This document shows positions 23,207-26,858 of a stretch of DNA of 46,564 nucleotides, piece after piece. The position numbers and the translations under genes were made by a program. How positions within the stretch are numbered: position 1 is the stretch's first letter; every line of letters begins with the position of its first letter. Location of the stretch: the NCBI GenBank assembly GCA_022567135.1, contig JADFHP010000002.1:1-46564 (forward strand), given 5' to 3'. Source of the stretch: Chloroflexota bacterium (GTDB taxonomy: Bacteria; Chloroflexota; Dehalococcoidia; Lucifugimonadales; Lucifugimonadaceae). The notes below the pieces were generated by a model that had not been told where the DNA came from, ran no database searches, and saw only the letters and a list, made by a program, of their open reading frames with translations.

Positions 23207-24385
23207 ATGAGATTAACGCTGCCGCCTAAGAATCGCCGCCGCGGCGCGGCCACGATTGCCGCGATGACCGCTCTGGTCGCCGTTGCCTGTTCGTCCGCGG
23301 CTACGGCGATACCTACCGCGTCGCCCGTGCCGCCAACTCCCGCGCCGCCGCGCCCCACCGCGACTCCACTTGGCATCCTGGACGAGAAGTTCACCGCGCC
23401 GTTTGAGAAACTCACCCCGTCCGGCGCACGCGACATCGACCCCGACGAATATCGCGCGCAGACCGACGTCGACAACATCGCCCCCATCTACGACCCGAAA
23501 ATAGTGAGGGCAGACCAGGTGGACCTGCTCCCCGAGGAGTTGGTGCTGGGGGTTGAGATCAACGGTGAAGCGCGCGCCTATCCCCACCGCCTGATGCAGT
23601 TCAGGGAGATCGCCAACGACGTCGTGGGCGGCGTGCCCATTCTGGTTTCGTGGTGCCCGGTATGCTTCACAGGCCTCGTCCACGACCGTCGGCTCGACGG
23701 GACCCTGAAGACGTTTGGCAACCAGGGCGCATTGTTCATGAACGCCCTGACATTCTGGGACCACGAGACGAAGAGCATCTGGGCGCAGCCCTGGGGGACG
23801 GCCATCACGGGCGATCTCAAAGGGTCCGCGCTCACGCTGCTGCCCTTCTCGCTGGACACCTGGGGCGCGTGGCTGGAAGCGCATCCCGACACAACGGTAG
23901 TGGAAGACGAACGCGGAAAAGTCTTTCTCCCCGATCTCATTCCCTACGACTATGTGATTGGCGTATCGATTAAAGAGGACGCCAGCTCGTACTACGTCAA
24001 CTCACTCCTTGAGACCACCGTGCTCAATCACAACGTTGGGGAGAATCCGATAGTCGTGATAACGGACCCCGATACCCGAAAAGTACGGGTGTTCCTCAGG
24101 CAGACCACGGGCACACCCGCCGACAAAACAGCCACAGTGCCGGACCTGTTCACGTTTGAGACAGCGGGCGATGAGCGCATGAGGGATCTGGAGACGGGGA
24201 CCATATGGGAGGTCGAACGCGGACTGGCGCTGGAAGGACCGCTGAGAGGCGCCGTCCTGCAGCAGGTGCCGTACATAACGTCGTTCGACTGGGCATGGGC
24301 AGACTTCTTCCCGGAAACCGCGGTTTGGGGCGAGGCAGGGCTGACCGGGTTAGGTGAGGTCATAGAGTTGGGCCGGGACCGATGA
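23207..24385 (+). CDS. DUF3179 domain-containing lipoprotein (copy 1)
   Basis: Lipobox ALVAVAC; Pro/Thr/Ala linker; ELVLGVEINGEARAYPHRLMQFREIANDVVGGVPILVSWCPVCFTGLVHDR. Confidence 0.92.
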   Translation: MRLTLPPKNRRRGAATIAAMTALVAVACSSAATAIPTASPVPPTPAPPRPTATPLGILDEKFTAPFEKLTPSGARDIDPDEYRAQTDVDNIAPIYDPKIVRADQVDLLPEELVLGVEINGEARAYPHRLMQFREIANDVVGGVPILVSWCPVCFTGLVHDRRLDGTLKTFGNQGALFMNALTFWDHETKSIWAQPWGTAITGDLKGSALTLLPFSLDTWGAWLEAHPDTTVVEDERGKVFLPDLIPYDYVIGVSIKEDASSYYVNSLLETTVLNHNVGENPIVVITDPDTRKVRVFLRQTTGTPADKTATVPDLFTFETAGDERMRDLETGTIWEVERGLALEGPLRGAVLQQVPYITSFDWAWADFFPETAVWGEAGLTGLGEVIELGRDR

Positions 24386-25623
24386 TCATACGGCTGTTCG
24401 GGCTCCGCGCTTCTATTGGCGCGACTCTGGCTATCGCCGCTATCGCATGCTCCTCGGCGGCAGATGGGATCATCACATCTACCGCGCCGCCGCCTACAGC
24501 GACGCCGACTGCGGCTCCCGAGCCGGCCGGCACGCCCGTCCCCACCCCGTTTGTCGAGACCACCCCGGCGGACCCGGACGCGCCCGCGCCAACGCCGACA
24601 CCAGAGCGGATATTCGCGGCGCCGACTCCGACGCCGTTCCCGGTGGCCCATTTCGACACCGACTTTACAGACCCGTTCGCAATATTGAATCCACTCAACG
24701 CCGATAAGCCCGTAGACGAGCGCGAGTACCTTCGCAACACTCCGCCGGACGCCGTGGCCCCCGTTTACACGCCCGAGTATGTGACCACCGGAGAAGCCGA
24801 TCTGATCCCGGATGAGCTGGTCATGGGCGTTTCCATCAACGGCGAGTCAAGGGCATTTCCTATCGGGTTGATGCGCAACCGGGAGATGGTCAACGACATC
24901 ATCGGCGGTGTCCCGGTACTGGTTACCTGGTGTCCCATCTGCTTTACCGGCCTGGTCCACGACCGCCGGCTGGACGGCAAAGTGCTTACGTTCGGCAACG
25001 AGGGTGTTCTCTTCATGAACGCCATGACCTGGTGGGACCACAAGACCGCCAGCGTCTGGTCGCAACCCTGGGGTACCGCTATCACAGGGACGCTCAAGGG
25101 CAAGTCACTCACACAGATTCCGTTCGAGTTCACGACGTGGCAGTCGTGGCTCAACATGCACCCGGACACGCTGGTCATTGTCGACGAGCGCGGTTTCGAG
25201 TACGGCCCCCAGATGATCACCGACGCCTTCGTCATCGGCGTGGCGATACAGGACCAGGCCCTTGGCTTCTACTACAAGTCGGTCGAGGAGATCGGCGTCC
25301 GCAACGACACGCTCGGCGACTTCCCGATTGCCGTGGTGGTGAACGCGGAGACCCGCGAGATATCCGTGCTGCTCAGGAACGGCATCGGTACGCCGGCCGA
25401 CGACGACGTCGAGATCCCGGAGCTGCTGACGTTCGAGAAAAACGCGGATGGAACGCTCACTGACATCGAGACAGGCTCCACCTGGGACCCCCATCGCGGC
25501 CTCGCCCTCAGCGGCCCGTTGCGCGGCGCGCCCATCCAGAAGATCCCGTTCCAGTCTTCGTTCGACTGGGCCTGGAACGACTTCTTCCCCGGCGCCGGGT
25601 TGTGGGGGGATAGGAAGCGCTAG
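24382..25623 (+). CDS. DUF3179 domain-containing lipoprotein (copy 2)
   Basis: Overlaps copy 1 by ATGA; lipobox AIAC; DIIGGVPVLVTWCPICFTGLVHDRRLDGKVLTFGNEGVLFMNAMTWWDHKT. Confidence 0.92.
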   Translation: MIIRLFGLRASIGATLAIAAIACSSAADGIITSTAPPPTATPTAAPEPAGTPVPTPFVETTPADPDAPAPTPTPERIFAAPTPTPFPVAHFDTDFTDPFAILNPLNADKPVDEREYLRNTPPDAVAPVYTPEYVTTGEADLIPDELVMGVSINGESRAFPIGLMRNREMVNDIIGGVPVLVTWCPICFTGLVHDRRLDGKVLTFGNEGVLFMNAMTWWDHKTASVWSQPWGTAITGTLKGKSLTQIPFEFTTWQSWLNMHPDTLVIVDERGFEYGPQMITDAFVIGVAIQDQALGFYYKSVEEIGVRNDTLGDFPIAVVVNAETREISVLLRNGIGTPADDDVEIPELLTFEKNADGTLTDIETGSTWDPHRGLALSGPLRGAPIQKIPFQSSFDWAWNDFFPGAGLWGDRKR

Positions 25624-25676: not shown

Positions 25677-26858
25677 GTGCACAGACTCATTACACGCAAA
25701 TTACTGCTACCTGCAGCGGCGCTGCTCGGTCTTATTGCGGTCGCCTGCGGCGAGAGCGCTCCGGTCGATCTGGCGCCCGGCGCGCTGGTGGACCCGGACG
25801 ATTCGCAGTCTGCCGAGGCCTCGGCAGACGGGTCCGAGCTGGCGGCGATTGATCCCGACCGTGAGGACGACTTCTCCGCTCCCTTCGCTCTGCTCAACCC
25901 GACGGGTCAGAAGACCGTCAACCCGGACGAATACAGGAAGCTGATCGCGCGTGACGTCATAGTGCCCGTATACGAGCCGAGGTACGTCGGTCCGGAAGAG
26001 GCCAACCTCGTCGATCAGGAACTCGTTTTAGCCGTAGAGGTCAACGGCGATGCGAAGGCGTTTCCGATCGGGCTTATCAGGAACCGGGAGATCGTCAACG
26101 ACACGATCGGAGGCGTTCCTCTCCTCATCACCTGGTGACCGATCTGTTTTACCGGTCTCGTGCATGACCGGCGGCTGGACGGGCGGACCCTGACCTTCGG
26201 CAACGAAGGCGCGCTGTTCATGAACGCCATGACGTGGTGGGATCACGAAACGGAGAGTATCTGGTCGCAGCCGTGGGGCACGTCGATTGCGGGAGATTTG
26301 CGGGGCCGGTCCCTGACGCTGATTCCGTCCGAGCTGAGAACCTGGGGTAGCTGGATTGCCGAGCATCCGGACACTCTGGTGCTTGCGGATGAGCGCGAGG
26401 TGGACGGCTTCCTGTTCCCGCAGCGCAGACAGCTCTTCAACGAGCGCTTCGTGATTGGCGTCTCGATTCAGGATGACGCGGCCGCCTACTACTTCCCTTC
26501 AGTAGGAAACGTCGGCGTCAGGAACGATACCCTCGGCGAATTCCCGATTGCCGTCTTCGTTGACGATGAGACGAACGCCATCTCGGTTCTGCTGCGCAAC
26601 GGCGTCGGCAGACCCGCCGACGAGGACGCCGCAGTGCCGGCTGTCCTCACATTCCAGATCGACGCTCAGGGCGTCGCCACGGACGTCGAGACCGGCACGG
26701 TCTGGGACGTGGAGCGCGGTCTCGCAACGGCCGGGCCATTGCGCGGCGCGGCAATCCAGAAGGTGCCCTACACCCCGGCCTTCGACTGGGCATGGGAAGA
26801 CTTCTTCCCGCACTCGACGTTCTGGGGCGACAACAACGGCAAGGTGCCATCGCCATAG
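25677..26858 (+). CDS. DUF3179 domain-containing lipoprotein (copy 3) with in-frame TGA at 26136-26138, predicted selenocysteine
   Basis: GTG start; one frame spans 25677-26858. Read-through gives TIGGVPLLITW[U]PICFTGLVHDRRLDGRTLTFGNEGALFMNAMTWWDHET, collinear with copies 1-2, TGA replacing the first Cys of WCPxC. Confidence 0.85.
26152..26171 (+). promoter_or_regulatory. Candidate bacterial SECIS hairpin
   Basis: CCGGUC-UCGUGCAU-GACCGG, 6-bp perfect stem starting 13 nt after the UGA, GU in apical loop. Confidence 0.65.

Follow-up and report, generated by a model that had tools for sequence, protein, structure and literature searches.

A candidate selenocysteine-containing DUF3179 lipoprotein in a tandem Sec/Cys gene cluster of a Dehalococcoidia genome

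Introduction

DUF3179 (pfam11376) is listed, with a UxxC/T motif, in two inventories of prokaryotic selenoproteins, in which the entry is traced to Zhang & Gladyshev 2007 (PMC9312934, PMC13188914), and the word Chloroflexi is absent from both review texts. Within a partial coverage of the literature, we found no paper on selenocysteine (Sec) in the Chloroflexota lineage considered here. The locus lies in the window, which means the whole stretch of DNA analysed (46,564 nucleotides), corresponding to contig C105 of a Dehalococcoidia MAG (G000; 2.6 Mb, 82.6% complete). One of its DUF3179 genes, copy 3, shares with the listed DUF3179 selenoproteins the Pfam family, the position of Sec in UxxC and the partner Cys, whereas the window differs from them in holding a three-gene tandem, with Sec and Cys copies adjacent, in a Dehalococcoidia MAG. 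A sequence-only reading of this DNA had guessed that DUF3179 might be a new selenoprotein family, which was wrong in view of the two published inventories. Copy 3 is therefore a well-supported new member, and the family is not new.

Results

Three DUF3179 (PF11376) genes are arranged head-to-tail in the window, the start of copy 2 overlapping the end of copy 1 (24382 vs 24385), and their neighbours are ordinary chromosomal genes, including those for penicillin amidase, leucine/valine biosynthesis and gyrA. The genes and the two codons of the motif are as follows.

23207 to 24385, + strand: DUF3179 copy 1, Cys form with the Cys codon TGC at 23654 (PF11376 match, tree)
24382 to 25623, + strand: DUF3179 copy 2, Cys form with the Cys codon TGT at 24931 (PF11376 match, tree)
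25677 to 26858, + strand: DUF3179 copy 3, predicted selenoprotein of 393 aa with U154 (open through TGA, PF11376 match of 191.7 bits, orthologue with the same TGA in G003)
26136 to 26138, + strand: predicted Sec-UGA codon, first position of U-P-I-C (aligned to the motif Cys of homologues)
26145 to 26147, + strand: codon of the partner, or resolving, Cys of UPIC (Cys in all 62 Sec copies)

Copy 3 begins with GTG at 25677 (ATG in copies 1 and 2), contains the TGA within its reading frame and then remains open to the TAG at 26858, read-through giving the 393 aa. Both the sequence and the frame were as the sequence-only reading had described them, namely two ORFs in one frame split only by this TGA, and the Cys codons that it had placed at the same site in the tandem paralogues were confirmed. 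The motif is W-C-P-[VI]-C in copies 1 and 2 and W-[TGA]-P-I-C in copy 3, the TGA occupying exactly the position of the first Cys of W-C-P-x-C in both paralogues. The three window copies score 191-209 bits against the DUF3179 profile of Pfam (cut-off 27); the Pfam search of copy 3 detected no family besides PF11376, and sequence searches of NCBIfam and PDB gave no match for the window DUF3179 protein.

The RNA that follows the UGA of copy 3 contains one further element.

26152 to 26171, + strand: bacterial-SECIS-like stem-loop (6 bp vs 1 bp in the Cys paralogues; covariation over 162 Sec genes)

Its stem is formed by CCGGUC (26152-26157) pairing with GACCGG (26166-26171), and its loop is UCGUGCAU, with GU at 26160-26161. 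All three window copies encode the nearly identical peptide P[IV]CFTGLVHDRRLDG there, and the number of consecutive pairs is six in copy 3 and one in each of copies 1 and 2. Among the 162 Sec genes, the stem starts 13 nt past the UGA codon, in either of two registers, and 4 or more consecutive pairs are present in 77%, compared with 9% of codon-randomised versions and 3% of Cys genes. The pair 20-30 (numbered from 0 at the U of UGA) is formed in 94% of the Sec genes, by six pair types with compensatory changes, and positions 24-25 are GU in 75%. When the folding stability after the UGA was expressed as z against synonymous-codon randomised versions, the mean was -1.34 in the 162 Sec genes vs 0.00 in 40 Cys genes, a comparison whose significance overstates independence because the Sec genes are related; the codon-randomised control and the in-window paralogues are the stronger arguments for a SECIS-like stem. 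The bSECIS model specifies a stem of 4-16 bp, a loop of 3-9 nt, a distance of 16-37 nt from the UGA and an MFE of at most -7.5 (PMC13188914). Copy 3 fits it in size, distance and energy, with 6 bp, an 8-nt loop, 19 nt from UGA to loop and an MFE of -11 to -12. The model also calls for a G at one of the first two loop positions, which copy 3 has only when U22 is paired with A28 and a U is bulged out.

It could be supposed that translation really ends at the UGA, copy 3 being a pseudogene or the TGA an error of sequencing or assembly, given that TGA is one substitution away from TGC and TGT and that the assembly is a draft MAG. The codons downstream of the UGA are, however, under purifying selection. 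The orthologue in G003 has TGA at the same codon, and the dN/dS after the UGA between the two is 0.065 (dN 0.023, dS 0.36; 235 codons), a low value of the kind that the sequence-only reading had expected and one that speaks against pseudogene decay. The same is indicated by the distribution of TGA within the family. G000 has eight DUF3179 genes, four of them with exactly one in-frame TGA, and its relatives have up to 11 copies each. When 112 DUF3179 copies from G000 and its relatives were aligned (about 38,500 domain codons), 62 of the 66 in-frame TGAs within DUF3179 domains fell in one column, with 4 elsewhere, a placement that is far beyond chance; the earlier expectation that related genomes would have TGA at this codon was borne out in these 62 copies. 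The first motif position is U in 62 of the 112 copies, C in 35, S in 7 and W in 3, and the second is Cys in every one of the 62 U copies. With the stem-loop also specific to TGA copies, and with the same TGA in independently assembled genomes refuting a stop or an error as a general explanation, we regard this alternative as highly improbable.

Further TGA-containing DUF3179 copies were present in other families in a 200-genome sample of the phylum. When GTDB contigs were scanned with a DNA pattern built around W-TGA-P-x-C-[FY]-T-G, 116 stretches were obtained, and 114 of them belong to DUF3179 genes whose frame stays open across the TGA. Among the named records are, within Chloroflexota, Dehalococcoidia/SAR202 and Anaerolineae and, from other phyla, Zixiibacteriota, Neomarinimicrobiota, Methylomirabilota, Tectomicrobia and Acidobacteria. 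A lone match of the W-TGA-P-x-C pattern on a viral contig was rejected, as it is not a DUF3179 gene. Two variants were also observed. In a one-contig genome, a window-like DUF3179 gene (L117, G014:C1:2387562-2388431) has two in-frame TGAs, the extra one lying eight codons upstream at a position that is normally Gly, and a clade of copies lacking the motif (L130-L137) has Ser, Trp or Ala at the first position and often Thr at the second, perhaps representing non-redox paralogues.

The occurrence of TGA-containing DUF3179 genes was compared with that of SelA, SelB, tRNA-Sec and SelD across 60 genomes. All 28 genomes with such a gene have at least two of the four components, 23 of them having all four, and the ten genomes with none of the four have no DUF3179 at all. 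In G000, SelB is full (337.6 bits, on C117), and SelD (386 bits, on C164) carries an in-frame TGA of its own. Only the N-terminal 92 residues of SelA are present, 92% identical to the G003 protein, and tRNA-Sec was not found in this 82.6% complete MAG, where the four RF01852 matches examined are Ser, Leu and Trp tRNAs. Synteny with G003 did not locate selC in G000, since the flanking DNA is split over contigs and the tRNA is absent there. Among the relatives of the same genus, full SelA is present in G001-G003, and tRNA-Sec with the anticodon TCA in G002 and G003. The earlier expectation of Sec genes was borne out by SelB and a Sec-type SelD in G000 and by the relatives. The SelA fragment (L255:1710-1985; G000:C114:13209-13484) ends abruptly inside contig C114, which reflects either chimerism in the assembly or a genuine truncation. 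Many G000 contigs contain short repeats of about 50 bp (e.g., C77:16382-16432 and C88:2079-2132), which adjoin the point at which G000 ceases to be syntenic with the selC region of G003.

The open frame past the UGA would also be explained if, instead of Sec, the codon specified another amino acid (Trp or Gly code) or were passed by generic read-through. Against this, 10 of the 21 annotated window genes end in TGA, consistent with the ordinary use of TGA stops noted earlier, and genome-wide recoding of UGA as Trp is therefore excluded for the window. Furthermore, the TGA stands in for the motif Cys, no TGA copies occur in genomes without Sec genes, and the stem-loop is present. Such decoding is, hence, scarcely probable.

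To trace the history of Sec and Cys, a tree of 106 DUF3179 copies was used in which the two motif columns were left out. The window clade comprises 14 rows (support 100) and is mostly Sec. Copy 1 (Cys) groups with its G003 orthologue, and the sister of this pair is a Sec gene (TGA) of the same-genus G001, which adjoins a Cys gene that is orthologue-like to copy 2. Because the clade is mostly Sec and copy 1 has a Sec orthologue in G001, the Cys copies 1 and 2 are read as derived, probably from Sec ancestors, with the nine changes on the tree also permitting other histories. The earlier picture of a lone odd Sec copy among normal Cys copies is accordingly probably to be reversed.

The features of the copy 3 protein are given below.

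25746 to 25748, + strand: predicted lipobox Cys, C24 of the precursor, in LIAVAC followed by GES (column Cys in 85 of 112 relatives)
25983 to 26393, + strand: first domain repeat, which carries UPIC (hhalign of half vs half; AF2 pLDDT 96)
26418 to 26846, + strand: second domain repeat, motif lost (hhalign; AF2 pLDDT 92 for the whole domain)

The precursor has a short positive start, then a hydrophobic stretch and then the LIAVAC lipobox, the signal peptide with the lipobox Cys being LLLPAAALLGLIAVAC as judged by sequence only. These elements indicate that copy 3 is most likely an exported, lipid-anchored protein. The DUF3179 domain is a tandem duplication (hhalign of the first vs the second half, E 2.3e-31) in which CPxC/UPxC is retained in the first repeat alone. 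The AF2 models (pLDDT 92 for the whole domain and 96 for repeat 1) are beta-rich and place the motif at a turn between two strands. The full model gave nothing at E 0.001 in a Foldseek search of the PDB, and, in a viral structure library, the sole significant match was to an uncharacterised protein of Indivirus. The best matches of repeat 1 by probability were Rieske-fold 3c0d (0.98) and 4aiv (0.97), nitrite reductase small subunits, which are non-significant with a TM of about 0.4-0.6 and an E above 0.08; hhalign against the Rieske profile was also weak (P 0.15 for repeat 1 and 0.002 for repeat 2). Repeat 1 may resemble Rieske/NirD-like proteins in structure, whereas the cluster ligands CxH...CxxH (two Cys, two His) are absent from the conserved DUF3179 columns and the UPxC pair is not aligned to Rieske cluster loops, so that a cluster-less Rieske/NirD-like fold is a weak hint from the models. 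That CPxC stands in place of the Rieske CPxH loop was considered and then abandoned because of the P of 0.15 for repeat 1 and because the match of repeat 2 aligned away from CPxC. With thioredoxin-like selenoproteins, DUF3179 shares a redox-type UxxC motif that follows a beta strand and a Trp, but it is predicted to fold as a duplicated beta-rich domain, and the listed Foldseek PDB matches included no thioredoxin fold around CxxC. As a separate observation, three order-level relatives (G039, G042 and G043) have 37-59 Rieske-domain matches each, compared with none to four in the others sampled.

In the neighbourhoods examined, a general partner gene of DUF3179 was not found; the neighbours are mostly conserved housekeeping genes, such as recF-like, leuB and phosphoribosyltransferase genes. 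At three Zixiibacteria-type loci (L141, L164 and L243), the Sec DUF3179 gene has a pyridine nucleotide-disulphide oxidoreductase gene downstream of it on the same strand, with a gene for a 4Fe-4S ferredoxin-type membrane protein coming next in the two such loci scanned, and the three genes possibly form an operon. At L189, Sec DUF3179 lies beside a glutaredoxin-reductase fusion. These redox-gene neighbours and the modelled position of the motif at a strand turn lend support to a redox role.

The main rival to the redox role is that, in a genuine Sec protein, the U/CPxC hairpin serves as a knuckle that binds metal (for example, Hg, Cu or Zn) and not as a thiol-disulfide site. CPxC at a hairpin tip resembles rubredoxin and zinc knuckles, and in Acidobacteria (L166) a merR-type regulator, an HMA protein and a MerA-like reductase are encoded within a few kb of Sec DUF3179. 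This mer neighbourhood was seen at one locus only, however, each protein has one such pair with no conserved set of His/Cys elsewhere in the alignment, and UxxC pairs with Sec are typically redox sites. Metal binding is, therefore, considered unlikely.

Discussion

The reading of UGA as Sec is based on the position of the codon, purifying selection, structured RNA and co-occurrence with Sec genes, and copy 3 almost certainly has Sec at U154. A redox role of its UPIC is probable, and taken as a whole, copy 3 is very likely a selenoprotein that acts as a lipid-anchored extracytoplasmic seleno-thiol oxidoreductase. The earlier proposal of an exported, Sec-containing DUF3179 lipoprotein is thereby supported by the Sec genes, the TGAs of relatives, the dN/dS and the normal TGA stops. 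Mechanistically, UGA 154 would be decoded as Sec via the SelB/SelD pathway and the stem-loop starting 13 nt past the codon. The product would be lipid-anchored outside the cytoplasm and is predicted to consist of two tandem beta-rich repeats, in the first of which a beta-hairpin would hold the U-P-x-C pair at its tip. This pair may form a selenenylsulfide, and the selenenylsulfide/dithiol pair could exchange electrons with a partner protein or a small thiol.

What is new here is the occurrence of multi-copy Sec/Cys mixtures in Dehalococcoidia and the Sec/Cys exchange at an orthologous tandem gene, together with the internal duplication of the DUF3179 domain and the weak Rieske/NirD-like hint. 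It might be speculated, although we hold it to be rather doubtful, that DUF3179 proteins in general are extracytoplasmic seleno-oxidoreductases made of two tandem cluster-less Rieske/NirD-like repeats, in which the U/CPxC hairpin of the first repeat replaces Fe-S redox chemistry, and that Dehalococcoidia have expanded mixed Sec/Cys paralogues with rapid swaps between them. Standard gene calling splits Sec DUF3179 genes, so that many of the copies found in Dehalococcoidia and in other uncultured phyla probably carry wrong annotations.

The tandem Sec and Cys paralogues, with their near-identical flanking peptide, represent a clean natural control for SECIS requirements, and the speed of residue exchange is seen from an orthologous gene that has Sec in one member of a genus and Cys in another. 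For this widespread domain of unknown function, moreover, the position of Sec suggests thiol/selenol chemistry.
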